From contig NZ_CP154879.1 of assembly GCF_039614765.1 (NCBI RefSeq), positions 1,736,001 to 1,800,000 of the forward strand: 64,000 nucleotides of DNA. Direction: 5' to 3'. The number at the start of each line of letters is the position of its first letter. The first letter of the stretch is position 1. The DNA is from Castellaniella sp. MT123 (GTDB lineage: Bacteria > Pseudomonadota > Gammaproteobacteria > Burkholderiales > Burkholderiaceae_B). Positions 8,007 through 32,702 of this stretch are shown piece after piece. Both the position numbers and the translations under genes were made by a program. The notes under the pieces were generated by a model that was given only the letters and a program-made list of their open reading frames with translations, had not been told where the DNA came from and did not search any database.

Positions 8007-8185
8007 GGCGTGAGCTCCGAAGGGTTTGAGGTCCGATTCCAGAGAGGAATCGGATGATTCAGTTTACTGTAAGATTTCGGTCTGCCCACGGCCTGTGGCC
8101 ATCCGGCCGATGACTGATCTCGATCAACCCCAGCCCGATCGTGGCGCGCGCCCCTGCCCCCAGGGGGGCGGATTATGATGGCGCA

Positions 8186-11100: not shown

Positions 11101-13903
11101 CCAGGGCGGACGCATCCTCGTCCAGGGCACCCCCGACACTGTGATGCAGGATCCGGAATCCCATACCGGCCAGGCGCTGAGCGACTATGCCCGCCAGCTG
11201 GACAATCCCGGGCTGGCCCTGAAGGAACCGGCAACGCGCCTGCCTGTGCCGGCCGGCAGCCCGGACATCCACATCATGAATGCCCGGGAACACAATCTGA
11301 AGGGCATCGAGGTCCACATCCCGCGCAATGCCTTCACCGTCGTCACGGGGGTATCGGGCTCCGGCAAGTCCACGCTGGCCTTCGACATCCTGTTCAACGA
11401 AGGACAGCGTCGCTATCTGGAATCGCTGAACGCCTATGCCCGCGCCATCGTCCAGCCGGCCGGCAAGCCCGACGTGGACGCCATCTACGGCATTCCGCCG
11501 ACCGTCGCGATCGAACAGCGCACCAGCCGGGGGGGACGCAAGTCCACCGTCGCCACGATGACGGAAATCCATCATTTCCTGCGCCTGCTGTACGTGCGCC
11601 TGGGCACGCAGATGTGCCCGGACTGCCACGTGCCGGTGGCGCCGCAGACACCCGAACAGATTGTGGCGCAGCTGCTGCGCGATCACACCGGCGAACACAT
11701 CGGCCTGCTGGCCCCGCTGGTGATTGCCCGCAAGGGCTATTACACGGATCTGGCCAAATGGGCCGCATCGCACGGGCATACGCACCTGCGGGTGGACGGC
11801 CAATTCATCCCCGTGAGCCCCTGGCCGCGCCTGGACCGCTATCAGGAACACACCATCGAATTGCCGGTGCGCGACCTGATCGTGGATGTGCGTGATGAAG
11901 CCGGCCTGCGCGACGCCGTGCGCGCCGCACTGGCCCTGGGACACGGCAGCTTCCGTGTCCTGACCGGCCTGACCGGGGCCGGGCCCGCCACCATCGAGGC
12001 ACGCCGCGCCGCCGGCCTGGCGGCGGATCCGGGGCTGCTGACCTTCTCCATCAAACGGGCCTGCCCGAGCTGCGGCACCAGCTTCCCCGAACCGGACCCG
12101 CGCCTGTTCTCCTACAACTCGCGCCACGGCTGGTGTCCGGGGTGCTTCGGCACCGGCCTGTCCCTGGTCGGCTTCACCGAAGACCAGACCGGCGAGGAAG
12201 CCGGCTGGCTGGAAGGCGGCGAGGCTGGCTTGCAGGTCTGCCCGCAATGCCATGGCCAGCGGCTGAATCGTGTCGCCCTGGCGTTTCGCTGGCATGATCG
12301 CTCCATCGCCGAACTGGCGGCCCTGCCGGTCAGCGATGCACAGCGGTTCTTCCTGGGCCTGGGCACCCAGGGACGCGAAGCCGAGATCGCCCGCGACATC
12401 CTCACGGAAATCCGGGGCCGCCTGAACTTCATGATGGACGTGGGCCTGGGCTACCTGGCCCTGGATCGCGCGGCCCCTACCCTGTCGGGCGGCGAGGCGC
12501 AGCGCATCCGCTTGGCCGCGCAACTGGGGTCCAACCTGCAGGGCGTCTGCTACGTCCTGGACGAACCCACCATCGGCCTGCATCCGCGCGACAACCGCAT
12601 CCTGCTGGATGCCCTGAGCCGCCTGGAAGGCAACGGCAACACGCTGGTGGTGGTGGAACACGACGAAGACACGATCCGCCGCGCCGAGCACGTCATCGAC
12701 ATCGGCCCCGGCGCCGGAACCCGGGGCGGCATGGTGGTCGCCCAAGGCACGGTCGCCGACATTGCCGCCAACCCGGCATCCCTGACCGGCCGCTATCTGC
12801 GCGAGCCGCTGACCCATCCGATGAACGGCCGCCGCCCGGTGGATGACGACACCCCCGCCCTTGAGATCGTCGACGCGACCCTGCACAACCTGCGTCATGC
12901 GCAGGCCCGCATCCCGCTGGAACGACTGACCGTGGTCACCGGCGTGTCCGGATCCGGAAAATCCACGCTGGCGCGCGAAGTCCTGCTGGACAACCTGACG
13001 CGTCGCGTCGGCAGCCGCCTGTCCGTTCCCTGGACGGGTTGCCACGATATCCGCGGCTGGGAAGCCATCGACCGGGTGCTGGAAGTGGACCAGACCCCCA
13101 TCGGCAAGACACCCCGGTCCTGCCCCGCCACCTATGTGGGCTTCTGGGACGACATCCGCAAACTGTACGCCAGCACGCGAGAATCGCGCCTGCGCGGCTG
13201 GACGGGCTCCCGATTTTCCTTCAACACCGGCGATGGCCGCTGCCCGGAATGCGAGGGCCAGGGCATGCGTACCATCGAGATGAGTTTCCTGCCCGACGTC
13301 AAGGTGCCCTGCGACGCCTGCCACGGCGCCCGCTTCAACCAGGAAACGCTGGGCGTGCAATGGAACGGCAGCAGCGCCGGTGATCTGCTGCGCATGGAAG
13401 TCGACGACGCCGTCGGCCATTTTTCCGCGCATCGCAAGATCGCCCGCGCCCTGCAGCTGATGCAGGACGTGGGGCTGGGCTACCTGACGCTGGGACAGCC
13501 CTCGCCCACCCTGTCCGGCGGCGAGGCCCAGCGCATCAAACTCGTCACCGAACTGACCAAGGCGCATCTGGACGAGGGCATTCTGCGTACCGGGCGCGCC
13601 TCGCGGACGCCTCACACGTTGTATGTTCTGGACGAGCCCACCGTGGGCCTGTCCACCGCCGATGTCGAGAAGCTGATCCGTGTCCTGCACCGGCTGGTCG
13701 AGGCCGGCCACACAGTGGTGGTGATCGAACACAACCTGGACGTGATCGCGGAAGCCGACTGGGTCGTGGATCTGGGTCCGGAAGGCGGCGATCAAGGCGG
13801 CCGGGTCGTGGCCCAGGGCAGCCCGGAACAACTCTGCGCCAGCGACACCCATACCGGCCGGATCCTGGGCGAATTCCTGTCGCGGGCTACGGCATCGACA
13901 TGA
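8186..13903 (+). CDS. uvrA: Tandem double-length UvrA excinuclease subunit (UvrA-like ATPase)
   Basis: A 1905-residue protein made of two complete UvrA modules in one chain. It has four Walker A sites (GVSGSGKSS near residue 31, then GVSGSGKST near 690, 1054 and 1585). Four LSGGE signatures (near 538, 883, 1433 and 1775) and four Walker B sites match them. Each half keeps a CxxC...CxxC zinc module in its first nucleotide-binding domain (near 284 and 1290) and the GDGRCPxC zinc module (near 789 and 1685). A Ser/Gly/Thr-rich insert lies near residues 190-230. UvrA dimers scan DNA for bulky lesions, so this protein may act as a covalent dimer. The start at 8186 matches the family start MNAPIRIFGARQNNLKNL. 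Burkholderiales commonly carry such a long paralogue besides the standard uvrA. Confidence 0.92.
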   Translation: MNAPIRIFGARQNNLKNLDVTIHTGELLVVTGVSGSGKSSLAFDTLYAEGQRRYVETFSPYARQFLDRMDKPQVDRIEGILPAIAIDQINPVRNSRSTVGTMTELNDHLKLLYARAGHLHCAGCARPVVRDNPASIRQQLDVLCAAADPRLVITFPVTVPGNFTEDEVRGFLEQQGYTRVHEPAAPSGSPGPTDPANRGKGTEEPTPGSSGESTTKAARASKGKVAGTTRRLHVIQDRFRLGNAEAARVDEALETALRQGNGRLTVYALFDDHEEAWRFSAGLHCAHCDIEYATPLPSTFSFNSPLGACEACKGFGRVMGIDYGLVVPDETRTLRGGAVKPWQTASYKECQEEMERYAARIGIRLDTPWRDLTAAEKTWVIHGAPDWKGGPSAWKHQWYGIQRFFDWLETKAYRMHVRVLLSKYRSYTPCPTCRGARLKPDATLWRLGRNADAIPGYPRFMPASARWTADQLAALPGLGLHDLMRLPIERVRYWFEGIELGQTLDEALNELLDEVRTRLRFLCDVGLGYLSLDRQSRTLSGGEVQRINLTTALGTSLVNTLFVLDEPSIGLHPRDIHRIVQVMQRLRNHGNTLVVVEHDPQVMVAADRVLDIGPGPGERGGHIVFDGTPAELAAADTLTGRYFGGRLRIEAPRPMPVADKTPRLLLQGVRANNLKNIDFSLPLGRLVCLTGVSGSGKSTLVQDVLYPALLKRLGRPTEAPGDHDALLGAEQIADVVLVDQAPIGKTARSNPASYVGAFDAIRKLFAAAPMSQERGYTAGTFSFNTGDGRCPGCGGTGFEHVEMQFLSDVYLRCPDCNGRRFRPQILEVRIEHLGRTASIDEVLDMTVSEALDFFQGLRDVQWGLAPLADVGLEYVRLGQPVPTLSGGEAQRLKLAGHLAEAARSRAPQGMLKGSLLLFDEPTTGLHFDDIARLMRAFRKLLAAGHSLLIIEHNLDVIRAADWIVDLGPEGGDQGGRILVQGTPDTVMQDPESHTGQALSDYARQLDNPGLALKEPATRLPVPAGSPDIHIMNAREHNLKGIEVHIPRNAFTVVTGVSGSGKSTLAFDILFNEGQRRYLESLNAYARAIVQPAGKPDVDAIYGIPPTVAIEQRTSRGGRKSTVATMTEIHHFLRLLYVRLGTQMCPDCHVPVAPQTPEQIVAQLLRDHTGEHIGLLAPLVIARKGYYTDLAKWAASHGHTHLRVDGQFIPVSPWPRLDRYQEHTIELPVRDLIVDVRDEAGLRDAVRAALALGHGSFRVLTGLTGAGPATIEARRAAGLAADPGLLTFSIKRACPSCGTSFPEPDPRLFSYNSRHGWCPGCFGTGLSLVGFTEDQTGEEAGWLEGGEAGLQVCPQCHGQRLNRVALAFRWHDRSIAELAALPVSDAQRFFLGLGTQGREAEIARDILTEIRGRLNFMMDVGLGYLALDRAAPTLSGGEAQRIRLAAQLGSNLQGVCYVLDEPTIGLHPRDNRILLDALSRLEGNGNTLVVVEHDEDTIRRAEHVIDIGPGAGTRGGMVVAQGTVADIAANPASLTGRYLREPLTHPMNGRRPVDDDTPALEIVDATLHNLRHAQARIPLERLTVVTGVSGSGKSTLAREVLLDNLTRRVGSRLSVPWTGCHDIRGWEAIDRVLEVDQTPIGKTPRSCPATYVGFWDDIRKLYASTRESRLRGWTGSRFSFNTGDGRCPECEGQGMRTIEMSFLPDVKVPCDACHGARFNQETLGVQWNGSSAGDLLRMEVDDAVGHFSAHRKIARALQLMQDVGLGYLTLGQPSPTLSGGEAQRIKLVTELTKAHLDEGILRTGRASRTPHTLYVLDEPTVGLSTADVEKLIRVLHRLVEAGHTVVVIEHNLDVIAEADWVVDLGPEGGDQGGRVVAQGSPEQLCASDTHTGRILGEFLSRATAST

Positions 13904-21890: not shown

Positions 21891-22853
21891 TCAGGCGGCC
21901 TCGCGCACTGAGGGCGCCGGCTGCGCAATGGCCTGGGCGATCTGGTCGCGGGTCAGCTCGGGCGCCAGCATCTCCATCAGCACATAGACGAAATCGCGCA
22001 GGAATACCCCGCGCTTGATGGCCACGCTGGTCGTATGCCGGCCAAACAAGTGCCCGGCCGGCAGGCCGACCAGCCCCTTGTCCCGCCGGGGATCGAAAGC
22101 CACTCCCGCGATGATCCCGATACCCAGGCCGATGTCCGCATAGGTCTTCACCACGTCCGCATCGATGGCTTCCAGCACGATGTCCGGGGTGATCCCGGCG
22201 CGCTCGAACGCGGCATCGATCGCCCGCCGCCCGGAAAAAGCCCGGTCATAGGTCACGATGGGGTACTGCGCCAGATGTTCCAGCGACAGATTGCGCGCGG
22301 CGCTGGAAGTCAGGCTGGTCAGGGGGTGATCCGGAGGCACCACCAGCGTGTGTTCCCAGGAATAGACCGGCAGCGCCACCAGGCCCGGCGTTTCGGCCAG
22401 GGTTTCCGTGGCGATCGCCAGATCGGCCTGTTCATGCAGCACCAGCTTGGCCAGGTGTTCCGGATTGCCTTCGGCCAGGGACACGTGGACCTTTGGAAAA
22501 CGCGCGCGAAACGCCGGGATCACGCGCGGCAGCCAATAGCGCGCCTGTGTGTGGGTGCAGGCGATCACCAGGGCGCCCTCGTCACGCTGGGCGAATTCGT
22601 CGCTGACCTTTTTCAGGTTGTCCACCTCGCGCATGATGCGATCGATGACGGTGGACACTGCCTGCCCCGGCTTGGTCAGGCCCTTGAGGCGCTTGCCGTG
22701 GCGCTCGAAGATCTTGAGGCCCAGCTCGTCCTCGAATTCGATGATGGCCTTGGACACCCCCGGCTGCGAGGTATACAGCGCCCGCGCAGCGTCAGTCAGG
22801 TTGTAATTGCGCCGGATGGTCTCGCGGACAAAACGAAATTGCTGAAGGTTCAT
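21891..22853 (-). CDS. cysB: LysR-family regulator CysB/Cbl type
   Basis: A 320-residue LysR-type regulator. The N-terminal helix-turn-helix reads MNLQQFRFVRETIRRNYNL then AALYTSQPGVSKAI-type residues, diagnostic of CysB. The effector domain has ACTHTQARYWLPRVIPAF and ADVVKTYADIGLGIGIIAG, both CysB hallmarks. It should activate sulphate assimilation or sulphonate use in response to O- or N-acetylserine. The start at 22853 is the conserved one; the frame runs nine codons further. It is preceded by its own AT-rich promoter region, so it is probably not part of the haem/cyclase operon upstream. Confidence 0.92.
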   Translation of the reverse strand: MNLQQFRFVRETIRRNYNLTDAARALYTSQPGVSKAIIEFEDELGLKIFERHGKRLKGLTKPGQAVSTVIDRIMREVDNLKKVSDEFAQRDEGALVIACTHTQARYWLPRVIPAFRARFPKVHVSLAEGNPEHLAKLVLHEQADLAIATETLAETPGLVALPVYSWEHTLVVPPDHPLTSLTSSAARNLSLEHLAQYPIVTYDRAFSGRRAIDAAFERAGITPDIVLEAIDADVVKTYADIGLGIGIIAGVAFDPRRDKGLVGLPAGHLFGRHTTSVAIKRGVFLRDFVYVLMEMLAPELTRDQIAQAIAQPAPSVREAA

Positions 22854-22954
22854 ATGCCATGGCCCCATAGGAAAGACCATTATATGGAATATGAAACGCT
22901 CTTTATATTACTTTTTGTTATTTGTTTAGCATACGGACGCTGGGTCGAGGAACC
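22854..22954 (-). promoter_or_regulatory. AT-rich promoter region of the cysB-type gene
   Basis: The segment 22876-22935 is markedly AT-rich (ATTATATGGAATATG and CTTTATATTACTTTTTG), unlike the genes on both sides. It lies between the UbiA-like stop and the regulator start on the same strand. CysB proteins bind such AT-rich sites and repress their own genes, so autoregulation is plausible. Confidence 0.45.
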
Positions 22955-23848
22955 TCATCCCGACAAGACGGACCCCGCCATGATCACGAGCATCACCAAG
23001 GGATACAGGCTGGCATGGTCGAACGATCGCGCCGCATCACGGCCGTCCAGCGTGCGAGCCAGTCTGACCGCCGGCAAGACCAGCAGGACGATGCCAGCGG
23101 CCAGAGCGGCCAGCCTGAACGGCCATCCCAGCGGCAGCGGCGACATGACGGGCAGCCACAGGCTCAGCAGGACGACACAGGACTGCAGGACCAGCACCAG
23201 TCCGCCGGAAAACGGCAGCCCGAATGCCAGCGGAATGGTGGACGCCCCCACGCGCCGGTCCTCTTCCAGGTCGTTCCAGTCCGCCAGTATGTTCTGGCCG
23301 CCGATTTCCCACACCATCAGCCACAGCACCATCAATGCCAGCCAGGGCCATGACGGCTGTTCGACCACGGCGAATACCGCGGCTGTCGGGCCGGCGGATT
23401 TCACCAACCCGCTGACCAGCGTGCGCAGCCAGGTGACCTTGAGGAGCTTGACGTACACGATTTCGAGCACGACGGCGGCCAGAAGAATCAGCAGGATTTT
23501 CGGATTCAACAGCCAGATGCCCGCCACGGCAAGGATCAGCCAGAAACCGAACCAGGCCAGCGCGCCCTTCATGCCGATCAGATTCTGCGCCAGGGGGTAG
23601 CGCATCCCGGAGGCTTCCACGGCATAGCCGGGCTTGATGCCGCCCGCGACTTTTTCGCGGTCATCCTTGACGCCAACGATGTCATTGAGCGCGTAAATCG
23701 CGGTGTAGCCCGCCAGGGCGGTGAACAGGCCCAGCGCGAGCACCCGCCCGCCAGGAAATTCCCCGAGCCAGAGCAATGCGACAAAACCCGGCATGGCGAT
23801 GTCGAGCACGCCATGGATGGACCGCGACAAAGCAAGGAATCGCTTCAT
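22955..23848 (-). CDS. UbiA-family prenyltransferase
   Basis: A 297-residue integral membrane protein with about eight or nine hydrophobic segments. Both Asp-rich Mg-prenyl-diphosphate motifs are present: NDIVGVKDDREK (Asn55, Asp56, Asp62, Asp63) and DWNDLEEDRRVG (DxxDxxxD). UbiA enzymes prenylate aromatic or other acceptor rings. It lacks the RPxRP stretch usual after motif one in classic UbiA, so the acceptor is uncertain. It is the last gene of the nine-gene operon, five bases after the UbiG-like gene. EboC, the UbiA-like protein of ebo clusters, is one possible counterpart; I cannot confirm orthology. Start at 23848 (MKRFLALSRSIHG). Confidence 0.85.
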   Translation of the reverse strand: MKRFLALSRSIHGVLDIAMPGFVALLWLGEFPGGRVLALGLFTALAGYTAIYALNDIVGVKDDREKVAGGIKPGYAVEASGMRYPLAQNLIGMKGALAWFGFWLILAVAGIWLLNPKILLILLAAVVLEIVYVKLLKVTWLRTLVSGLVKSAGPTAAVFAVVEQPSWPWLALMVLWLMVWEIGGQNILADWNDLEEDRRVGASTIPLAFGLPFSGGLVLVLQSCVVLLSLWLPVMSPLPLGWPFRLAALAAGIVLLVLPAVRLARTLDGRDAARSFDHASLYPLVMLVIMAGSVLSG

Positions 23849-23853
23849 GATGA

Positions 23854-24567
23854 TCAGCCTTTCTTGCGGAAGCAGGCCATGTAATTGATGTCTTCCCGCC
23901 CCGGCGCCACTCGGAATCGGCGCAGCAAGGGGTTGTACATCAGGCTGGCGACGGACTGAAACTCGAGTCCGGCCGCGGCTGCCCACGTCCGCATCTCATC
24001 GGGACGGATCAATTTGCGGTAGTGATGGGTGCCGCGCGGCAACAGACGAAGGATATATTCGCCGGCAACGATGGCGAACAGGAAGGCCTTCGGCGTGCGG
24101 TTGATGGTGGAAAAGAACGCCATCCCGCCCGGTTTGAGCAAGCGGCCGCAGGCCGCGATGACCTGGTCGGGATGCGGCACATGCTCGAGCATTTCCATGC
24201 AGGTGACGGCATCGAAGCCGCCGGCTTCGGCTTGCGCCAGGGCTTCCGCGTCCATCAGCCGATAATCGATCCCGATGCCGCCGGCCTCGGCATGCTGGCG
24301 CGCAACGCGCAGCGATAATTCCGACAGATCGATCCCGGTGACGCGGGCGCCTGAACGCGCCAATGCCTCGGCCAGGATGCCGCCGCCGCAGCCGATGTCC
24401 ACGACGCGCGGCGCGGCGTCCTGCGTCAGGCGTCCGGTGATGAAGCCCAGGCGCAGCGAATTGATCGCATGCAGCTGACCCATCTTGCCAGCCGGATCCC
24501 ACCAGAGCGCCGCCATGCGGTTGAAATGCGCGATTTCCGCAGCATCGACGTTCCGTGATTCATTCAT
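23854..24567 (-). CDS. UbiG-like SAM-dependent O-methyltransferase
   Basis: A 237-residue class I methyltransferase closely patterned on UbiG. It has WWDPAGKMGQLHAINSLRL, motif I VVDIGCGGGILAEAL, DAVTCMEMLEHVPHPDQV, FFSTINRTPKAF and GEYILRLLPRGTHHY. UbiG methylates catechol and hydroquinone oxygens in ubiquinone synthesis. Here it sits between a sugar-phosphate-cyclase-like gene (ATGA overlap at 24564-24567) and a UbiA-like gene, far from the usual gph/ompA neighbourhood. It may be a paralogue serving this operon's product. It could instead be the genome's only UbiG; the rest of the genome would decide. Confidence 0.85.
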   Translation of the reverse strand: MNESRNVDAAEIAHFNRMAALWWDPAGKMGQLHAINSLRLGFITGRLTQDAAPRVVDIGCGGGILAEALARSGARVTGIDLSELSLRVARQHAEAGGIGIDYRLMDAEALAQAEAGGFDAVTCMEMLEHVPHPDQVIAACGRLLKPGGMAFFSTINRTPKAFLFAIVAGEYILRLLPRGTHHYRKLIRPDEMRTWAAAAGLEFQSVASLMYNPLLRRFRVAPGREDINYMACFRKKG

Positions 24568-25694
24568 CGTTCTGTCCATGTTGTATGCAAAGTGTGAATG
24601 GCCGCTTCGATGTCCGCGCGGCTGATGTCGTCGACGAATACGCACTGACCGATCACCGATGGCAGGGGCACACGCTGCCGGCCATTGCGATGTTCGATCC
24701 GGTCGAGCAGCGACTGCCACATCAAACCGGCGTCCAGCAAGCCGATTTCCGGTTCGATGCCGAGATGCCGGACCAGGGCGAAAATGCGCGCCATCGACGG
24801 CGTGTCCAGCAGCGCCCGGTCCCGCGCGATCACGGTGGAAACCAGGATATCGAGCAACACCGACTCGCCATGCAGCAGGCGATCCTCGAAACGCGTCTCG
24901 AGGCCATAACTGAATGTATGGCCGAAATCGACGCAGCGCGCAAGCTCGTCTTCGTACAGGTTGGGGGATAGTTCCTCGAGCATGCCGCCGATGGCACGAT
25001 CGAGCAGGTCGCCCGCGGACTCATCCTGAAAGGCCGTGGCCAGGCAAGAGACCCCGATGTCTTCGAGCCAGGCGAACAGTTCGGCATCCCGGATGACCGC
25101 GAGCTTGAGGATCTCGCACAGGCCATTGCGCAAGTGCCGCACATCGAGCGTGGACAGCAGCCGGCGATCGAGCAGGACCAGGCGCGGCGGCTCGAAGCTG
25201 CCCAGCCGGTTCTTGTGGCCATTGAAGTTGACCCCGGTCTTGATCCCCACAGAGGCATCGACATAGCCCATCAGGGTGGTTGGCACCTTGATGTGCGGCA
25301 CGCCGCGGCGGTAGCTCGATGCCACGAACCCCACGATGTCGGTCAGTACCCCGCCCCCGATGGCGATGATCGGTTCGTCGCGCCGATGGATCGGGAAATC
25401 GTCCAGCGCGCCAGCCACATCCAGCCAGGCATCGACTGTCTTTGCGGATTCTCCGCCGGGCAGGACGAACAGGCGCGCATCGATCCCATGGTGTCTGAAG
25501 TAAGCCGCGATGCGGGCGCCATGGTACCGATGCACCTGCTCGTCGACCACCACGAAGCGGCGACCGCCGTGCCGGCGCCCCACCGACAGCAGCGCATCAT
25601 TGCCCGGATCGAAAATGCCGTCCACCGTGCGCAATTCGTACTCGACGCTGCGCGTCGCACGCACCTGCCAGTACATGGCGGTCACCGCGCTCAT
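24564..25694 (-). CDS. Sedoheptulose-7-phosphate-cyclase-like enzyme (3-dehydroquinate synthase superfamily; EboD-like)
   Basis: A 376-residue NAD- and metal-dependent sugar phosphate cyclase. The NAD site is AIGGGVLTDIVGFVASSYRRG. Metal ligands are kept: Glu in GLCEILKLAV, His in VDFGHTFSYG and His in LLHGESV. The substrate loop reads DASVGIKTGVNFNGHKNRLG. The FxGHKNRLG part is the form seen in sedoheptulose-7-phosphate cyclases (2-epi-5-epi-valiolone synthase and relatives) rather than the NHPxGKNxIG of true AroB. The likely reaction is closure of a C7 sugar phosphate to a cyclitol. Coupled by ATGA on both sides. EboD proteins belong to this superfamily. Confidence 0.83.
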   Translation of the reverse strand: MSAVTAMYWQVRATRSVEYELRTVDGIFDPGNDALLSVGRRHGGRRFVVVDEQVHRYHGARIAAYFRHHGIDARLFVLPGGESAKTVDAWLDVAGALDDFPIHRRDEPIIAIGGGVLTDIVGFVASSYRRGVPHIKVPTTLMGYVDASVGIKTGVNFNGHKNRLGSFEPPRLVLLDRRLLSTLDVRHLRNGLCEILKLAVIRDAELFAWLEDIGVSCLATAFQDESAGDLLDRAIGGMLEELSPNLYEDELARCVDFGHTFSYGLETRFEDRLLHGESVLLDILVSTVIARDRALLDTPSMARIFALVRHLGIEPEIGLLDAGLMWQSLLDRIEHRNGRQRVPLPSVIGQCVFVDDISRADIEAAIHTLHTTWTER

Positions 25695-26173
25695 GCGATC
25701 TCTCCCCATTGCGCACGACAGTCCAGCACTTCGCGGGCCACCGACTGGGCAAGCGCAAGATCATGGTTCCGCCAGCGCCCGCACTGGTCGATGCGGGCAT
25801 AGGGCACGGCGGTCGCCGTCAGCATGTCGTCAAAGACGCGCCACAGCACATCCTCGATGACCCGGCGCCGGCCCTCGTTCAACAACGTCAGGTAAAACCC
25901 GGTCTGGCACCCCATCACGCCCACGCCGATGAAATGCTCCGGCAACCGGCGCTGAAAACCTTCCAGCAGGAAATGCTCGATGGAATGGGCCTCGGTGTCG
26001 GACAAATACGCATCCGCATTCGGCAGACGCAAGCGCAAGTCGATACAGTAGACGACGTCGCCCGCCGTCCCCGCATGGGCGCCACGCAGCTTGACGCTGG
26101 GCGCCTTGAGCAAGCGATGATCGAGCTCGCCGACCGTATCCGGATCCCAGCCCAGTGCCGTCACATCGATCAT
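25691..26173 (-). CDS. LuxS-family protein (S-ribosylhomocysteinase-like)
   Basis: A 160-residue protein that keeps the LuxS metal and catalytic set. The HxxEH motif reads AHSIEHFLLEGF (His63, Glu66, His67), the third metal ligand is Cys131 in DQCGRWRNHDL, the catalytic Cys89 lies in VMGCQTGFY, and Arg47 in CIDLRLRLPN. The N-terminus has GELDHRLLKAPSVKLRG, matching LuxS xxxxDHxxxxAPxVR, but the Ser of the LuxS SFxxDH motif (Ser6) is replaced. Classic LuxS splits S-ribosylhomocysteine to homocysteine and the AI-2 precursor. Its place inside a cyclase operon suggests a changed substrate, but true LuxS activity is not excluded. ATGA overlaps on both sides. Confidence 0.82.
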   Translation of the reverse strand: MIDVTALGWDPDTVGELDHRLLKAPSVKLRGAHAGTAGDVVYCIDLRLRLPNADAYLSDTEAHSIEHFLLEGFQRRLPEHFIGVGVMGCQTGFYLTLLNEGRRRVIEDVLWRVFDDMLTATAVPYARIDQCGRWRNHDLALAQSVAREVLDCRAQWGEIA

Positions 26174-27438
26174 GACGCCACCTGGTTCGTCGAAGTCCGA
26201 CCGACTCCGTCCAGGCCGGCAAGATGGCGGTAGCTGTCATCGAGCGCCTGCTGCCAGGAGCTTACGTGGTGATAGAGCTCGACCGCGCCATAGCCGTCGA
26301 AGCCGTTCGCATCGAGCGCCTTGAAGCTGGCCGCCAGATCGAGCGTGCCCGATCCGGGGATCTCGTGGAAATGTGCAACGCCGGTCAGCGTATTGGCCAC
26401 CATCCGGCCGATGCGCGCCGGCCCGCGCACACCGCGCATGTAGGCGATGATCGGCCAGGCCCGCTCCAGCACTTCGAACGACAGGCCAGGGACGGAAATC
26501 AGATAAGTGAAGATCTCGTCGTCCAATGGCGACTGGCCGGCGTAGAGACCGCCATAATCGACCAGTTCAGGAGCGGCCGTCATGCCAGCGCGGGCCAGGT
26601 GCGCATCGATCCGGGCGCGCTGCTTCGCATTCGGCGCCCCGTCGCAGAAAACCAGGGGGTGATCGCGGTCCACCAGCAGAAAATCCGCGGATTCCGGGAA
26701 ATACACTAGCGTGCTGGCGAAATCAGGCCGGAATTCCAGATCCGGCGCATCTTCGACGATCTTCAGGTTCCAGCCTTCGCGCGCATCGGAGATATGCAGA
26801 TAGCGCGCGGACGCGGCGGCGCGGGCCAGCGCGCCCACATAGTCAGTTTCCGAACAATACGCATGGCAAATGTCGATGTGCAAGGCAAAGCGGCTGGAGC
26901 CGACCGCGTCGATCAGGGCCAGGCCCTGATCCAGCGTTTCGATGAGCATGCCGGGTTCGGGCTCGATCAGCAGCGTGATGTCCTCGCCGTCGTGAATCTC
27001 GCGCAGGCACTCATGGATGGATTCGGCCAGCAGCGCATGCGCATCCACAGCGGGATGACGCATGTGCTCCTCGCGCAGGAAACCGCTGCCGAAGGTCACC
27101 AGTTTGACACCCAGCCGGCGAGCCACCCGGATGCCGCGCTTGACCAGATCGATGCGGCGCTTGCGCCCCGCCAGATCCAGGGTCATCAGCGAAGGTTCAT
27201 GCGGCCGCGAAGGGGTGAAGAAATGCGAAGCCGTCGCCACGCAGGCGGGCACGATGGCGGCCTTGCGCAGGCACGCTTGCACCGCATCGAGATCCGCGTC
27301 GCCAAGATTGAAGGGATTGAACTGCCTGCGGTGAAACGAAAGCTCGATCCCCTCGTAGCCTGCCCGCGCAACCGCCTCGATCGCCTCGAGGAAGGACAGA
27401 TTGGTAAGACCGAAAGTGCTATAAGCCAATTTGATCAT
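26170..27438 (-). CDS. Xylose-isomerase-like TIM-barrel protein (possible EboE counterpart)
   Basis: A 422-residue AP-endonuclease-2/xylose-isomerase-like protein. The barrel starts IKLAYSTFGLTNLSF and AGYEGIELSFHRRQ. It has LLIEPEPGMLIETLDQG, HIDICHAYCSETD and a final VELYHHVSSW, with Glu, Asp and His positions typical of metal-binding barrels. The EPEPxxLIET stretch recalls EboE of ebo clusters, whose biochemical function is unknown. It is longer than simple sugar epimerases (about 280 residues); the C-terminal third may be a partly repeated half-barrel. Nine bases separate it from chdC; ATGA overlaps the LuxS-like gene. Confidence 0.75.
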   Translation of the reverse strand: MIKLAYSTFGLTNLSFLEAIEAVARAGYEGIELSFHRRQFNPFNLGDADLDAVQACLRKAAIVPACVATASHFFTPSRPHEPSLMTLDLAGRKRRIDLVKRGIRVARRLGVKLVTFGSGFLREEHMRHPAVDAHALLAESIHECLREIHDGEDITLLIEPEPGMLIETLDQGLALIDAVGSSRFALHIDICHAYCSETDYVGALARAAASARYLHISDAREGWNLKIVEDAPDLEFRPDFASTLVYFPESADFLLVDRDHPLVFCDGAPNAKQRARIDAHLARAGMTAAPELVDYGGLYAGQSPLDDEIFTYLISVPGLSFEVLERAWPIIAYMRGVRGPARIGRMVANTLTGVAHFHEIPGSGTLDLAASFKALDANGFDGYGAVELYHHVSSWQQALDDSYRHLAGLDGVGRTSTNQVAS

Positions 27439-27447
27439 GTCGTCTCG

Positions 27448-28116
27448 TCACACATATTGCATCAGGGCATCCCGCAGGTCGAAATGGCGCCCGACGATGA
27501 ACGGATGCTCGTCCTGCATGTACAGTCTGGACTTGGATTCCCGAAGCTTGCGGACGCAATCCACCAGACGGCTGAGGTCGTTCGTCTCGAAGGTTAACAG
27601 CCATTCGTAATCCCCAAGACCGAAACCGTACACGCCATTGGTCAGGATATCCGGCACGAACTCGTGGCCGATCTGCCCATGATCCCCGATGACGGCGCGC
27701 CGTTCCCAGGCTGGCAGCAGATAGTATTCCGGCGTCCTGATAAACGGGTAAAAGCACAGGAATTTCCTGGGCGTCATGCCGACGGCAAAGGACGTCGGAT
27801 GTTCGGAAAACTCGAAGGGCTTGGTGATCCCGATGAACGCATGCGGCGTGTCGATATAGGCGCCCAGCGGCGACCGGCGTATTTCCAGTTGAAGATCCTG
27901 AATGTCCTCGACGTGGTCGCCGAACATCCAGAACAGGATGTCGGTATGGCCCTGAAAGCCCTGCACCACGTAAGTGCCGCGCAGGCCGACCCGATCCTGG
28001 TATTTCTCGAAGATGGCGACCGCCGCGTCCACGGCGGCCGATTTTTCAGACTTGCCCAGCGGATTCCATTGTGATGTGAACTTGATGGCGAATTGTGATG
28101 TGAACTGTTCCTGCAT
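27448..28116 (-). CDS. chdC: Coproheme decarboxylase ChdC (HemQ; chlorite-dismutase family)
   Basis: A 222-residue protein of the chlorite dismutase fold, clearly of the HemQ type found in Actinobacteria. Conserved features are FYPFIRTPEYYLLPAWERR, with candidate catalytic Tyr123, then DHGQIGHEF with proximal haem ligand candidate His146, GLGDYEWLLTFE and HPFIVGRHF. ChdC converts coproheme to haem b with peroxide, the last step of the coproporphyrin-dependent route. True chlorite dismutases carry a distal Arg and have a different pattern. In this operon it follows cgoX and cpfC homologues, completing that branch. The first 20 residues hold an 8-codon duplication. Confidence 0.9.
   Translation of the reverse strand: MQEQFTSQFAIKFTSQWNPLGKSEKSAAVDAAVAIFEKYQDRVGLRGTYVVQGFQGHTDILFWMFGDHVEDIQDLQLEIRRSPLGAYIDTPHAFIGITKPFEFSEHPTSFAVGMTPRKFLCFYPFIRTPEYYLLPAWERRAVIGDHGQIGHEFVPDILTNGVYGFGLGDYEWLLTFETNDLSRLVDCVRKLRESKSRLYMQDEHPFIVGRHFDLRDALMQYV
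28068..28106. repeat. Direct repeat of 15 bp inside the start of chdC
   Basis: ATTGTGATGTGAACT occurs at 28068-28082 and again at 28092-28106, a 24-bp period. It is in frame and repeats FTSQ in the protein (residues 5-8 and 13-16). It looks like a small recent in-frame duplication in the non-conserved N-terminus. Confidence 0.8.
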
Positions 28117-28134
28117 GGCATTTTCCTGCTTGGG

Positions 28135-28659
28135 TCATGATATATCCTGGATCGAACGCGCGGGTTCCCCGGATGGATCGCATGCCGCCCGGATGCCGTC
28201 GATGCGCTGGATGCCGTGCCGGTCATGCAGCCACACCAGATCCACCAGGTTTTTCAGGCTGATCCGGCCGTACAGGGGGTGCGGCGCGGACCTCTCGGCA
28301 AGTTCGCGTTCGTGCGTTTCATTGAAGACTCGCTGCAGATGCCGGAATCTGGACTCCTCCAGCTGCTGGATCAATGCCGATTTGGTCAGAAACTCGATCC
28401 GGGGCGGCTCGTCGCCGTCGAATTGCTCGATCGCCGGAGACAACGCGTCGGGGCTCAATTCCGGGACTTTCCCGCCCCGGGACTCCAGCGAGCCCAGAAT
28501 ATCCGCCGCCAGCCCTTGCTCGACTGTGGCAATGTGGTGAAGTATCTGCGCGGCGCTCCAGCCCCGCGCGTCCTGGCGCTGGTTCAACTGCTCGTCGGTC
28601 CAGGCCTCGAAGCTGGCCAGAAGCCCGAGCCTCGCCTTGCCGAGATGGGTGATCAACAT
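28135..28659 (-). CDS. DinB-like four-helix-bundle protein
   Basis: A 174-residue protein of the DinB/YfiT superfamily. It starts MLITHLGKARLGLLASF and has WSAAQILHHIATVEQGL and LVWLHDRHGIQRI. The His residues of HHIATVEQ and HDRHGIQRI are candidate metal ligands, as in DinB_2 thiol-transferase-like proteins. The start at 28659 lies 14 bases past cgoX; the longer frame is a shadow of cgoX. It is held between cgoX and chdC in the operon, so a part in haem handling or thiol-dependent chemistry is possible but unproven. Confidence 0.75.
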   Translation of the reverse strand: MLITHLGKARLGLLASFEAWTDEQLNQRQDARGWSAAQILHHIATVEQGLAADILGSLESRGGKVPELSPDALSPAIEQFDGDEPPRIEFLTKSALIQQLEESRFRHLQRVFNETHERELAERSAPHPLYGRISLKNLVDLVWLHDRHGIQRIDGIRAACDPSGEPARSIQDIS

Positions 28660-28672
28660 CGTAGCGACTCCG

Positions 28673-30097
28673 TCAAATTTCGAGAAGACGCGCCAGGGCC
28701 GCCTGAGCGGCCTCCCCGCCCTGGCGCGCGCAATCGGCAAGACCCACGCCCCCGTAGGGCGCGCCAGCCAGCTGGACGCCGGGGAATTTCCCCGCGACGC
28801 GGCGCCTGAGCGCAGCCACGCGCGCCACATGGCCGACCGCGTAGCGCGGCATGGCCTTGTGCCAGCGTGTCACCAGCTGGAATTCGGGTTGGGCGTCGAT
28901 GCCCATGATGCGCTTGAGGTCGCGCAGCACCGTCTGCACGATCGCGCGCTCGTCCGCGGACACCAGGCTGTCGTCATCCGGACGCCCGACATAGCTGCGC
29001 AGCAGCGCATGGCCTTGCGGTGCCGACCCAGGCCATTTGAGATGGCTCCAGGTGCATGCGGTGATGGCGCAGCCCGATTGCCGCGCGACGACAAAGCCTG
29101 TGCCAGGCGTATGCGTGCGAATTGCCTGGCTGCGAAAGCCCAGCACGACATTGGCGACGGACGCGGGCGGACTTTCATGCAGACTCTCGAAATCCGTCGA
29201 CATATCCAGCAGTTCCGCCGCGGTTTGACTGGGAACCGCCAGGATGACGGCATCCGCATCCAGTGCCTCGCGCCCCCGCAGAGTCAGGCGATACCGTCCC
29301 CCAACCGGCCGGATGTCCGTCACGGCGGCGTCGCGGATGATGGCTGCGGGGGGCAGTTGGGCTTCCACCGCACCGACCAGGGATTGCAGGCCGCCTCTGA
29401 AGCTGGCGAAGGCGGCGGGTTTCTCCGCACCGGAGGCCGCCTGTTCGCTGCGGGCGCGCTGGGCACGCACACGGCGCAGGCCCAGGATCAGGCTGCGGTG
29501 CTGCCGCAGCAGCGCCGTCATGCGCGGCATGACGGCCTGCATGCTCAGCCGCTCGACCGTCTCGCCATAAATGGCGGCGAACAGAGGGTCGATCAACTGA
29601 TCGACGAGTTCTCCGCCAAAGCGCCGCCTGAAAAAACTGCCCACGGACTCGTCGTCGGCGCAGGCGCCGCGCCAACGCAACGCCTCGAACGCCACGGCGA
29701 GCTTGCCGCCCGGCGACAACAGCCCGGATCGCAGGAAGGGCATCAGCTTCGTCGGCACCCCCATGACCATGCCGTCCGGGATCGGCCGAAGCGCACCCCG
29801 GGCATAGATATAGGCCTGCTTGGCCGCGCCATGGACAAGGTGCGGCCCCATTCCGACCGCGTCGGCGAGCTCCAGCAGGCTGCCGCCACCCGGATGAAAG
29901 GAATCGGGCCCCGTCTCGATCAGAAAATCCCCGTGGCGCACCGTCCGGATCTTTCCACCCAGACGGTCCTGGGATTCCAGCATCACCCAGTCCAGCGGGA
30001 CGCCGGACCGGTGGATTTCCTGGTGGATCCGGAATGCCGCGGACAACCCCGTGATGCCCCCGCCGATGATGGCCACCCTTCGTACGGCGCCGCTCAT
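28673..30097 (-). CDS. cgoX: Coproporphyrinogen III oxidase CgoX (HemY-type flavoprotein)
   Basis: A 474-residue FAD amine-oxidase-fold enzyme. The N-terminal dinucleotide site is VAIIGGGITGLSAAFRI, followed by RLGGKIRTVRHGDFLIETGPDSF. FASFRGGLQSLVGAVEAQL, WSHLKWPGSAP and the C-terminal AGAPYGGVGLADCARQG are the marks of Bacillus-type HemY. In Gram-positives this enzyme oxidises coproporphyrinogen III to coproporphyrin III; HemY proteins of Gram-negatives make protoporphyrin. Genes for CpfC and ChdC homologues in the same operon favour the first reaction. ATGA overlap with hemH at 30094-30097. Confidence 0.88.
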   Translation of the reverse strand: MSGAVRRVAIIGGGITGLSAAFRIHQEIHRSGVPLDWVMLESQDRLGGKIRTVRHGDFLIETGPDSFHPGGGSLLELADAVGMGPHLVHGAAKQAYIYARGALRPIPDGMVMGVPTKLMPFLRSGLLSPGGKLAVAFEALRWRGACADDESVGSFFRRRFGGELVDQLIDPLFAAIYGETVERLSMQAVMPRMTALLRQHRSLILGLRRVRAQRARSEQAASGAEKPAAFASFRGGLQSLVGAVEAQLPPAAIIRDAAVTDIRPVGGRYRLTLRGREALDADAVILAVPSQTAAELLDMSTDFESLHESPPASVANVVLGFRSQAIRTHTPGTGFVVARQSGCAITACTWSHLKWPGSAPQGHALLRSYVGRPDDDSLVSADERAIVQTVLRDLKRIMGIDAQPEFQLVTRWHKAMPRYAVGHVARVAALRRRVAGKFPGVQLAGAPYGGVGLADCARQGGEAAQAALARLLEI

Positions 30098-31041
30098 GCC
30101 GCGATTCGTTCCGTTTGGCCCAGCGAGCCGGCAACGGCATCGGCCAGGCACGAGATGAACCCGCGATCCGCATTGGGCATGGGGGGGCGCAGGTAACGGC
30201 CGCCGAGCGTCTCGATCAGAGAGCGGCATTCGATGTCGTCGTCGTAGAGGACCTCGAGGTGGTCGGATACGAAACCGATCGGGCAGACGATGAAATTGCG
30301 ATAGGCCCCGCTGTCCCAGGCATCGCGGACGACGTCCCGGATATCGGGGCCCAGCCAGGGTTCCGGGGTTCGGCCAGCGCTTTGCCATGCGATCGCGTGA
30401 TTGCCCACGCCCGCGGCAGCCGCGATCAGATCCGCGCTCTCGCGCACCTGCGTGGGATAGGGGTCCCCATCGAGCACCCGCATCGGCAGGCTATGGGCGG
30501 AAAACACCACGAGCGTCCGGCGTGATTCGGCGAGGGGCAGCGAAGACAGCAGCGTGCGGATGCGCGTCGCCCAGAACTGGATGAAGCCCGGTTGACGGTA
30601 CCAGCCTGACACCGCCGGGCGCAGGGTCAGTCCCAGCGCCCCGGCCGCCTGAGCCGCCCGGTCAAAATAGGGACGAATGCCGCTTCCCGAATCGTGCGGC
30701 GCCATGACGACCGCAATCACGGTCCGGATACCCTGCGCAACCAGGGTCTCGACCGCGTCTTCGATAAAGGGCCGGGCATGTTTGAAGCCGACGACCGATC
30801 TGAAACCCGTGTCCGGGAACCGGGCCTGCAGTTCCGCAGCGAGCCCGTCCGCCTGAGCGCGGGTCACGCGCCCCAGCGGCGACGATCCGCCGATGGCCTG
30901 GTACCGGGCGCTCAGTTCTTCGAGTTGTGCCGCCGATGGCGGCCTGCCTTGGCGGATGTGGGTGTAGTAGGCGGGAAGTTCCGCAATGTGGTCCGGCGTC
31001 CCGTAAGCCATGACCAGGATGCCAACCAATTTTCGCGACAT
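30094..31041 (-). CDS. cpfC: Coproporphyrin III ferrochelatase CpfC (HemH, Gram-positive type)
   Basis: A 315-residue ferrochelatase that follows Bacillus subtilis HemH closely in length and motif numbering: MAYGTP with Tyr13, GGSSPL, FSAHSLP with His183, PYPTQVRESADL, WQSAGRTPEPWLGP and DHLEVLYDDD with Glu263. Tyr13, His183 and Glu264 are the known metal-site residues in B. subtilis. Proteobacterial protoporphyrin ferrochelatases are normally longer, membrane-associated and have other flanking sequence. It is the first gene of the nine-gene operon and 34 bases downstream of a perfect inverted repeat. In a betaproteobacterium this type is unexpected. Confidence 0.9.
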   Translation of the reverse strand: MSRKLVGILVMAYGTPDHIAELPAYYTHIRQGRPPSAAQLEELSARYQAIGGSSPLGRVTRAQADGLAAELQARFPDTGFRSVVGFKHARPFIEDAVETLVAQGIRTVIAVVMAPHDSGSGIRPYFDRAAQAAGALGLTLRPAVSGWYRQPGFIQFWATRIRTLLSSLPLAESRRTLVVFSAHSLPMRVLDGDPYPTQVRESADLIAAAAGVGNHAIAWQSAGRTPEPWLGPDIRDVVRDAWDSGAYRNFIVCPIGFVSDHLEVLYDDDIECRSLIETLGGRYLRPPMPNADRGFISCLADAVAGSLGQTERIAA

Positions 31042-31074
31042 GTTCCAGCACGACCGTGAGCAAGCCTGAATGAA

Positions 31075-31102
31075 GGCGCAACGCGCTATCGCACGTTGCG
31101 CC
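31075..31102. promoter_or_regulatory. Perfect 9-bp inverted repeat upstream of the cpfC operon
   Basis: GGCGCAACG (31075-31083) and CGTTGCGCC (31094-31102) are separated by 10 bp, so half-site centres lie 19 bp apart, about two helical turns. It sits 34 bases before the cpfC start. No T run follows on either strand, so a dimeric-regulator operator is likelier than a terminator. It could still be an RNA hairpin after mmsA. Confidence 0.5.
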
Positions 31103-31208
31103 CAAGTCTGCTCAGTATGGTCTATTCTCGCCGCGAGAGAGGCCGAAACAGTGAGGGATCTTGCGAATCATCAACAAGAAGAGCCTATTTTCACCGCAGG
31201 AGGCCCTG

Positions 31209-32702
31209 TCACTTCATTGCGATCGTCGTGTTGATGTCCGTCGGGTGCGCCTGCCAGCGGGCAGTGATCGTCTTGGTTTGCGTCCAGAAATAGATCGACT
31301 GACGGCCATTGGGACCCAGATCGCCCAGTTTGGAAGCCCGCGACCCCGTGAAGCTGAACCAGGCCACCGGCACCGGAATGGGAATGTTGATCCCCACCTG
31401 CCCGACATCGACGTGGTTCTGGAAATAGCGGGCATGACCGCCATCCTGCGTGAAGATGGATGTGCCATTGCCGTTCGGATTGGCGTTGATGAATTCGACG
31501 GCTTCTTCCAGCGTGTCCACCAGCACGACCGACAGCACCGGCCCGAAGATTTCCTCGTGATAGATGGTCATGTCGGCCTTGACCTTGCTGAAGATCGTAG
31601 GGCCCACGAAATTGCCTTTTTCGTAACCTGGAACCGTGATCCCACGGCCATCGAGCACCAGATCGGCGCCTTCGTCCACGCCTTTCTGGATCAGGCCCTC
31701 GACACGCTTTTTGGCCGTCGGGGAAATCAGGGGCCCCAGATCCGCGTGGCGGTCTGTGCCGATATTGACCTTCAGTTTGCGGGCCCGTTCGGCAAAGTCA
31801 GGCAGCCATTTCTGGGCTTCGCCCACCAGGACCAACACGGAAATGGCCATGCAGCGTTCCCCCGCTGCGCCGAAGGCCGCGCCCAGCATGGAATTCAACG
31901 CGGCTTCACGGTCGGCGTCAGGCATGATGACGCTGTGGTTCTTCGCGCCCATCATGGCCTGGCAGCGCTTGCCGGCATTGGAGGAGCGGCGGTAGATTTC
32001 CGTACCGACCCGGGTCGACCCGATGAAGGACACTGCCTTGATGTCCGGATGATCGCACAATGCGTTGGCCACGTCGGGCCCGCCATGGACGACATTGAGC
32101 ACGCCGGGCGGCAGGCCGGCTTCCAGGGCCAGCTGGGCCACCATCAGCGATGCGGTAGGGTCCTGCTCGGACGGCTTATAGACGAAAGTATTGCCCATGG
32201 TGACCGCGATCGGGAACATCCAGCACGGCAGCATCACCGGAAAATTGAAGGCCGTGATGCCCGCGCACACCCCCAGTGGCTGCAGCACGTTGTAGACGTC
32301 GATGCCGGTGGCCGCGTTTTCAGCGTAATCGCCAAGCTGCAGGACATTGGCGGACACGGCGTGTTCCACGCCCTCGAGGCCGCGACCGACCTCGCCCTCG
32401 GCATCGGGCAGGGTCTTGCCGTGTTCACGCGACAGCGCCTCTGCGATCCTGGTGGTGTTGTCGCGCAGCAGCCGGGCCAGATCGGTCATGATCTGGCGGC
32501 GCTTTGCCTGGCTGACATTGCGCCAGGTCTTGAAGGCTTCTTTGGAGTTGGCAATGGCCCGTTCGACCTCGGCCGGCGTGGCGAACGGCACCCGCGCCAC
32601 GACTTCCTGAGTGGCCGGGTTGATGACGTCACGCCATTCTTTCGTTTCGGACTGGACCAGTTTCCCGTCGATCAGTAGCGGGACGCGTGGAATATCGCTC
32701 AT
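31209..32702 (-). CDS. mmsA: CoA-acylating methylmalonate-semialdehyde dehydrogenase
   Basis: A 497-residue aldehyde dehydrogenase. Catalytic Cys284 lies in GAAGERCMAIS; the family-specific NPATQEVVARVPF, AGITAFNFPVMLPCWMFP and GRQSIYFWTQTKTIT are present. It converts methylmalonate or malonate semialdehyde with CoA and NAD to propionyl- or acetyl-CoA in valine and inositol breakdown. It is divergent from a LysR gene with shared repeats between them, so that regulator probably controls it. No mmsB or other valine genes are adjacent. Confidence 0.93.
   Translation of the reverse strand: MSDIPRVPLLIDGKLVQSETKEWRDVINPATQEVVARVPFATPAEVERAIANSKEAFKTWRNVSQAKRRQIMTDLARLLRDNTTRIAEALSREHGKTLPDAEGEVGRGLEGVEHAVSANVLQLGDYAENAATGIDVYNVLQPLGVCAGITAFNFPVMLPCWMFPIAVTMGNTFVYKPSEQDPTASLMVAQLALEAGLPPGVLNVVHGGPDVANALCDHPDIKAVSFIGSTRVGTEIYRRSSNAGKRCQAMMGAKNHSVIMPDADREAALNSMLGAAFGAAGERCMAISVLVLVGEAQKWLPDFAERARKLKVNIGTDRHADLGPLISPTAKKRVEGLIQKGVDEGADLVLDGRGITVPGYEKGNFVGPTIFSKVKADMTIYHEEIFGPVLSVVLVDTLEEAVEFINANPNGNGTSIFTQDGGHARYFQNHVDVGQVGINIPIPVPVAWFSFTGSRASKLGDLGPNGRQSIYFWTQTKTITARWQAHPTDINTTIAMK

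Follow-up and report, generated by a model that had tools for sequence, protein, structure and literature searches.

Organization of the nine-gene locus

We analysed a 64-kb window of the complete 3.37-Mb genome of Castellaniella sp. MT123 (positions 1,736,001 to 1,800,000 of NZ_CP154879.1), concentrating on nine tightly packed genes that occupy positions 22955–31041 of the window on the minus strand. Pfam and NCBIfam searches bore out the families of all nine. The four genes at the upstream end are cpfC (30094–31041), encoding a coproporphyrin III ferrochelatase-like protein of 315 amino acids (aa) that matches PF00762; cgoX (28673–30097), encoding a 474-aa coproporphyrinogen III oxidase of the HemY type (TIGR00562, 322.7 bits; cut-off 97.85); a gene for a 174-aa DinB-superfamily protein (28135–28659; PF12867, 41.9 bits, over the cut-off); and chdC (27448–28116), encoding a 222-aa coprohaem decarboxylase of the actinobacterial type (PF06778, 166 bits). 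These are followed by genes for a 422-aa xylose-isomerase-like TIM barrel with an insertion (26170–27438; PF01261, 121.9 bits), a 160-aa LuxS-like metalloenzyme (25691–26173; PF02664, 98.5 bits), a 376-aa EEVS-like sugar-phosphate cyclase (24564–25694), a 237-aa UbiG-like O-methyltransferase (23854–24567; TIGR01983, 255.3 bits; cut-off 102.95) and a 297-aa UbiA-superfamily prenyltransferase (22955–23848; PF01040, 85 bits).

Four pairs of neighbouring genes share ATGA overlaps, with start/stop pairs at 30097/30094, 26173/26170, 25694/25691 and 24567/24564, and the remaining four intergenic gaps are 13, 18, 9 and 5 bp. An initial annotation, made from the letters of this DNA, had described nine same-strand genes with four such overlaps and other gaps of 5–18 bp, and each of these features was found again at the same positions. 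Its description of the locus as one compact unit was also upheld, both by the packing and by retention of the gene order in other genomes. Because the order is kept elsewhere, the arrangement is not a matter of chance. Judged from their packing, the nine genes probably form a single transcript, in which we recognize two modules by sequence: module A (cpfC-cgoX-dinB-chdC) and module B (the genes for the TIM barrel, LuxS-like protein, cyclase, UbiG-like and UbiA-like proteins), hereafter the cassette.

The five-gene cassette is widespread and self-contained

Relatives of the cassette were gathered by scanning species genomes with the LuxS-like protein, which yielded a tight group at 45–69% identity and then a fall to ordinary LuxS. 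The five genes were found complete and in the same order at 24 loci besides the window. These comprise loci in Chloroflexota (L008, L011–L013, L015–L017, L019, L021 and L022, with L018 cut at a contig end), loci in Gamma- and Betaproteobacteria (L009, L014, L020, L023, L024, G002 and G006, with L026 and L010/L088 cut) and seven further full copies within the family of the Rhodanobacter genome G073. When all open reading frames around the first 23 loci were compared, no further recurring gene was found beside the cassette, which is therefore self-contained. HemN-FNR-NadA genes in the Rhodanobacteraceae genome G187, a gene for a NadB-like flavoprotein at L009 and a UbiD gene in G111 were considered as additional members and rejected, as each was non-recurring. 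The UbiD gene ends against the cassette ubiA gene in G111 (L130, 3902–5401), an arrangement seen at no other locus.

The same five genes in the same order (xylose-isomerase-like, LuxS, EEVS, UbiG and UbiA) appear beside nirS in Anaerolineales SURF MAG 42 in an appendix table, where they are listed as neighbours only and their pathway and function are left undiscussed (PMC8756737). Within the literature library searched, that paper alone contained LuxS together with valiolone. A general link between the cassette and denitrification was considered and dropped, as nirS near the cassette in SURF MAG 42 and genes for a haem-copper oxidase subunit I and a cytochrome c in G187 do not amount to a general pattern.

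In a concatenated tree, the window cassette grouped with the copies of the Rhodanobacteraceae genomes G187, G098, G119 and G230 (support 100/100). It is 71–75% identical to the Rhodanobacteraceae copies, compared to 62–66% for those of its genus mates G002 and G006. As the window copy sits with the Rhodanobacteraceae and apart from its genus mates, the cassette moves horizontally. A search for plasmid carriage of the cassette or of a close ChdC returned no matches above 60% identity. By sequence comparison, module B is autonomous and moves horizontally, and it probably specifies a route to a membrane lipid.

The cyclase groups with sedoheptulose-7-phosphate cyclases

The closest PDB match of the cyclase is 4p53 (ValA; 321 bits). 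A tree was built with reference sequences from annotated records, namely EboD, AroB, two sedoheptulose 7-phosphate (S7P) cyclases (from Streptomyces clavuligerus and Agrobacterium) and a cyclase from a mycosporine-type gene set of Nostoc. In this small sample the cassette, EEVS and DDGS sequences were set apart from EboD and AroB (support 100/99), and the cassette cyclases formed their own clade (97/100) on the S7P-cyclase side of the tree. All 28 cassette cyclases carry the EEVS-type residues Leu, Asp and His at the positions of ValA Leu267, Asp281 and His360, which we take to be those that tell EEVS from DDGS; the corresponding residues are Glu, Ala and Thr in the Nostoc DDGS, and AroB has Val and Asn at the first two positions. 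These comparisons indicate that the cassette cyclase is EEVS-like and groups with the S7P cyclases. The possibility that it is a second AroB was rejected, as the genome has its own separate AroB and the tree parts the two.

The LuxS-like protein and the TIM barrel

The LuxS-like protein retains the HxxEH motif, the catalytic Cys and the third metal-binding Cys of LuxS. Residues H63, E66, H67, C89 and C131 (window numbering) are invariant in 20/20 cassette members, as are H19 and R47. Ordinary LuxS proteins for comparison were taken from the same scan, and this set of 61 leans to Bacillota. A position that is Asp in every one of them is Ser (19) or Gly (1) in the 20 cassette proteins, and a Ser-Phe pair near the start and one Lys of ordinary LuxS are also replaced in the cassette clade. 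We take the lost Asp to be D78 in B. subtilis numbering, and the lost positions presumably lie on the homocysteine side of the LuxS pocket. No second LuxS was found in the window genome.

The luxS-like gene holds its place between the TIM-barrel and cyclase genes across phyla. Moreover, a single continuous reading frame fuses the TIM barrel to the LuxS-like domain in Desulforadius tongensis (L025, 8699–10477; 592 aa) and Zooshikella harenae (L027, 8837–10444; 535 aa). In Desulforadius the fusion is accompanied by the cyclase, with neither UbiG nor UbiA beside it, which suggests that the head-group enzymes act first and that decoration comes second.

The TIM barrel was modelled with AlphaFold2 from 18 sequences (predicted local distance difference test score, pLDDT, of 90.4). 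The nearest solved folds were ketose 3-epimerases (Z 29.9; root-mean-square deviation 2.1 over 251 aligned residues), and the Foldseek matches included the dehydroshikimate dehydratase AsbF and a keto-glucal hydratase. E159, E161, D189, H215 and E387 are invariant in the 18 sequences; such invariant residues are expected for the divalent-metal site of the xylose-isomerase-like TIM-barrel superfamily. The protein is probably an isomerase, epimerase or dehydratase, the fold leaving the choice of reaction undecided.

The UbiG-like and UbiA-like proteins

Residues 5–232 of the UbiG-like protein, nearly its full length, aligned to E. coli UbiG (4kdc; 238 bits). In the prenyltransferase, two Asp-rich motifs (ND...D and ADWND..ED) are invariant in 27/27 cassette members. 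No NCBIfam model, those of UbiA, MenA, MqnP and CtaB included, matched this protein at the curated cut-off, and no solved structure related to it by sequence was found. The window genome has two further UbiA-superfamily genes, and MenA is present in at least four Anaerolineae cassette carriers, which also have haem O synthase genes. The proposal that the cassette is the only quinone source of its hosts was therefore not supported. Given the MenA and haem O synthase genes of the Anaerolineae carriers, the cassette product is probably an extra one.

Module A encodes a predicted coproporphyrin-dependent haem branch

The best solved relatives of CpfC are ferrochelatases of the Bacillus/Listeria type, including one named 'Coproporphyrin III ferrochelatase', at about 300–315 bits versus about 112 bits for mitochondrial ferrochelatases. 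CgoX is of the Bacillus type and matched 3i6d at 401 bits. The best PDB matches of ChdC are coprohaem decarboxylases of the actinobacterial type, and the aligned Tyr and two His are kept. The haem branch of the initial annotation, of coproporphyrin type, was supported by the solved relatives of all three proteins. As CgoX, CpfC and ChdC of the right types are encoded together, we read module A from its sequences as a complete extra late haem branch that is coproporphyrin-dependent. The window genome also has HemF and a second, different ferrochelatase elsewhere, and the coproporphyrin branch is therefore additional.

Module A resembles the coproporphyrin-dependent pathway of Bacillota and Actinomycetota in having CgoX, CpfC and ChdC with their type features. 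It differs in residing in a proteobacterium with HemF and another ferrochelatase, and in including the DinB-like gene. The latter is the constant third gene of the haem quartet, with the same position in G002 (another species of the genus), G073 and G187. ChdC is 80–84% identical in these three genomes, whereas its partner proteins are only 36–60% identical. A coproporphyrin-dependent branch is thus present inside Proteobacteria that already make haem by another route. One Anaerolineae cassette carrier also has a coproporphyrin-type operon elsewhere (L111, 4330–11907; by eye hemB, radical SAM, chdC, hemE, cpfC, cgoX and hemL), the ChdC of which is only 30% identical.

Association of the two modules

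In G002 the same nine-gene order is found with different flanks and a spacer of about 280 bp between the modules. The haem quartet also occurs, in the same order, in the two Rhodanobacteraceae genomes, on another contig than the cassette in G073 and 35 kb from it in G187. Among 61 relatives, a close ChdC was found only in G000 and G002, both of which have the cassette. Among 399 genomes of the order it was found only in the window genome, two others having a ChdC at 22–23% identity. Of 197 genomes in the family of G073, 2 have a close ChdC, both with the cassette, and 9 have the cassette or a cut copy; an overlap of this size has a chance probability of 0.002, which rises to 0.04 once the centre genome, selected because both are present in it, is set aside, and neither value is corrected for shared ancestry. 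The cassette is present in each of the four genomes found with a close ChdC, and most cassette carriers are without the haem module.

The initial annotation had proposed a gene-neighbourhood search for co-occurrence of the cyclase, LuxS-like and chdC genes. The two halves do occur together elsewhere, in the nine-gene order of G002 and as both modules in two Rhodanobacteraceae, and a close ChdC was seen only with the cassette; the converse does not hold, as most cassette carriers are without ChdC or the other haem genes. The haem half is not an integral part of the pathway, since most carriers have the cassette on its own.

The stretch between the modules of G187 (L167 and L168; contig C6, 97–129 kb) contains genes for HemN, an FNR-like regulator, NadA and a NadB-like protein, as well as a multicopper oxidase, a haem-copper oxidase subunit I with a cytochrome c gene, and an efflux-like set. 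In G073, inspection by eye of the region beside the haem module (L110, 4696–9209) identified genes for a cytochrome c peroxidase, a haem-copper oxidase-like subunit and an SCO-like protein, convergent with chdC. The oxidase-type genes near the haem module in both genomes would suit a supply of haem for respiration.

Proposed pathway and alternatives

From the families, conserved residues, gene order, autonomy of module B and co-occurrence, all of which are established by sequence, we propose that one probable transcript joins two modules, of which module B would make a quinone-type lipid from S7P and module A would provide an extra haem branch. We give this combined reading slightly less than an even chance. 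The cyclase would convert S7P to 2-epi-5-epi-valiolone (EEV). The next two enzymes, the TIM barrel and the LuxS-like metalloenzyme, would work as a pair to shift the carbonyl and remove water. Loss of two waters from EEV (C7H12O6) would give C7H8O4, a ring of the trihydroxybenzyl-alcohol type, with no change in redox state; the cassette is without an oxidoreductase, which fits such a redox-neutral aromatization because none would be needed. UbiA would then attach a prenyl chain and UbiG would subsequently methylate a ring hydroxyl adjacent to another. The predicted product is a ubiquinone-like lipid of the quinol/quinone type, made without chorismate beside the ordinary ubiquinone or menaquinone of the host. 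Module A, with CgoX, CpfC, ChdC and the DinB-like protein, would most likely supply haem for respiratory enzymes under the same conditions.

The sugar-derived, prenylated and O-methylated product envisaged in the initial annotation is supported as the likely output. That reading was right in outline and wrong in its comparison with the ebo clusters; the haem part is a separate, associated module, and the cassette is the strong finding. To our knowledge, all known isoprenoid quinone routes take their ring from chorismate or its products, and the LuxS fold is known only from the methyl cycle. The more specific proposal, that the cassette makes a redox lipid of the lipoquinone type independently of shikimate, with a head derived from S7P, and that its LuxS-fold enzyme is a ring isomerase/dehydratase paired with the TIM barrel, is possible, although we hold it only tentatively and consider it more doubtful than the combined reading. 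If true, it would extend the LuxS fold to chemistry of a second kind. In a survey of 26,264 genomes, many lineages, chiefly of Bacillota and Chloroflexota, had none of the known quinone pathways, and the existence of undiscovered quinones was suggested (PMC13386864). The cassette, recurrent in Anaerolineae, is a concrete five-gene candidate for such a redox lipid, which would be an addition rather than a replacement since the carriers examined seem to keep their ordinary routes.

Several points weigh against the proposed route. The tree does not join EEVS and the cassette cyclases as one clade and leaves the branching order of EEVS, DDGS and the cassette unsettled. Epimerase and isomerase folds match the TIM barrel no less well than dehydratases do, and the acceptor of the cassette UbiA is left open because the protein belongs to no characterized subfamily. 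Moreover, each of the reactions, the aromatic nature of the product and a functional tie between the modules, if there is one, are our inference. Instead of a quinone, the product may be a prenylated, methylated cyclitol or cyclohexenone, i.e. a non-aromatic, gadusol-like antioxidant or protectant lipid. Gadusol/mycosporine-type routes are built around an EEVS or DDGS together with an O-methyltransferase, Nostoc has a set of DDGS, O-methyltransferase and ATP-grasp genes, and the TIM barrel may be an epimerase. However, the cassette methyltransferase is of the UbiG type, the known substrates of which are prenylated catechols, and the cassette is without an oxidoreductase or ATP-grasp gene. We consider a gadusol-like product unlikely, though worth keeping in mind. 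Retention of all known metal and catalytic residues, together with the failure to find another LuxS in the genome, would suit an ordinary S-ribosylhomocysteine lyase that recycles the by-product of UbiG's methyl donor, leaving the cyclase, TIM barrel, UbiG and UbiA to make the product by themselves. This is improbable given the replacement of the otherwise constant Asp, the Ser-Phe pair and the Lys, the fusion to the TIM barrel in two bacteria and the conserved position between the TIM-barrel and cyclase genes.

The relationship between the modules is a separate question, and a functional link may not exist, because the haem module is absent from most cassette carriers. The two modules, each moving on its own and with hosts and habitats in common, may simply have hitch-hiked together, to which we assign a substantial probability, short of even. 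The window cassette is nearest to those of Rhodanobacteraceae (up to 75% identity) and not to those of its genus mates (62–66%), whereas its ChdC is nearest to that of a genus mate, and the modules are on different contigs in G073. On the other hand, the four close ChdC carriers found all have the cassette, the modules adjoin in two species with different flanks and are 35 kb apart in a third, and the overlap in the 197 genomes has the low chance values given above. At the other extreme, the nine genes might constitute a single pathway, in which a step depends on haem or the product is prenylated and derived from haem. The shared gene order at two distinct chromosomal sites within one genus and the unusually strong conservation of ChdC relative to its partners point in this direction, but the cassette is alone in most carriers and the haem module is by itself a complete known pathway, which makes a nine-gene pathway a poor prospect.

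Comparison with known systems

The ebo clusters (eboA-F; PMC5133447, PMC6282210) share with the cassette a sugar-phosphate cyclase, a xylose-isomerase-like TIM barrel and a UbiA-like prenyltransferase; like the cassette, they have a product that is unknown and have been widely transferred. EboE also shares a short local motif (ITLxIEPEP...ET) with the cassette TIM barrel. Unlike the ebo clusters, the cassette has LuxS-like and UbiG genes. The EboE model NF035939 had no match in the window genome at an E value of 0.001, while two other genomes of the order scored well above the cut-off. EboA, EboB and EboF are not among the nine genes, and at the other loci nothing further is conserved next to the cassette. 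Comparison of profiles of the cassette prenyltransferase and EboC, the latter with two rows only, gave no meaningful match. As the EboE model does not detect the TIM barrel and the EEVS-like cyclase falls outside the EboD clade in our small tree sample, membership of the ebo clusters, with which the initial annotation had compared these genes, was rejected.

Pathways to C7 cyclitols that use EEVS (validamycin, acarbose and gadusol) use a cyclase that belongs to the same branch and shows an identical residue fingerprint. The cassette differs from them in having no kinase, dehydrogenase or aminotransferase, with the LuxS-like, UbiG and UbiA proteins in their place. Ubiquinone biosynthesis likewise employs a prenyltransferase and a UbiG-type methyltransferase on a ring (UbiA and UbiG). 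The cassette differs in that it has no chorismate-derived head, its ring being predicted to come from a C7 sugar, and in that its UbiA lies outside the known subfamilies.

Surroundings of the locus

A scan of positions 22600–31400 for sigma-70-like promoters gave no consensus matches. The intergenic stretch upstream of cpfC (31042–31208, minus strand) is a likely promoter region and is free of genes up to an aldehyde dehydrogenase gene, which flanks the locus upstream; a gene for a LysR-type regulator flanks it downstream. Elsewhere in the window, a UvrA-like reading frame extends from 8141 to 13903; at 1920 codons it is roughly double the normal length.

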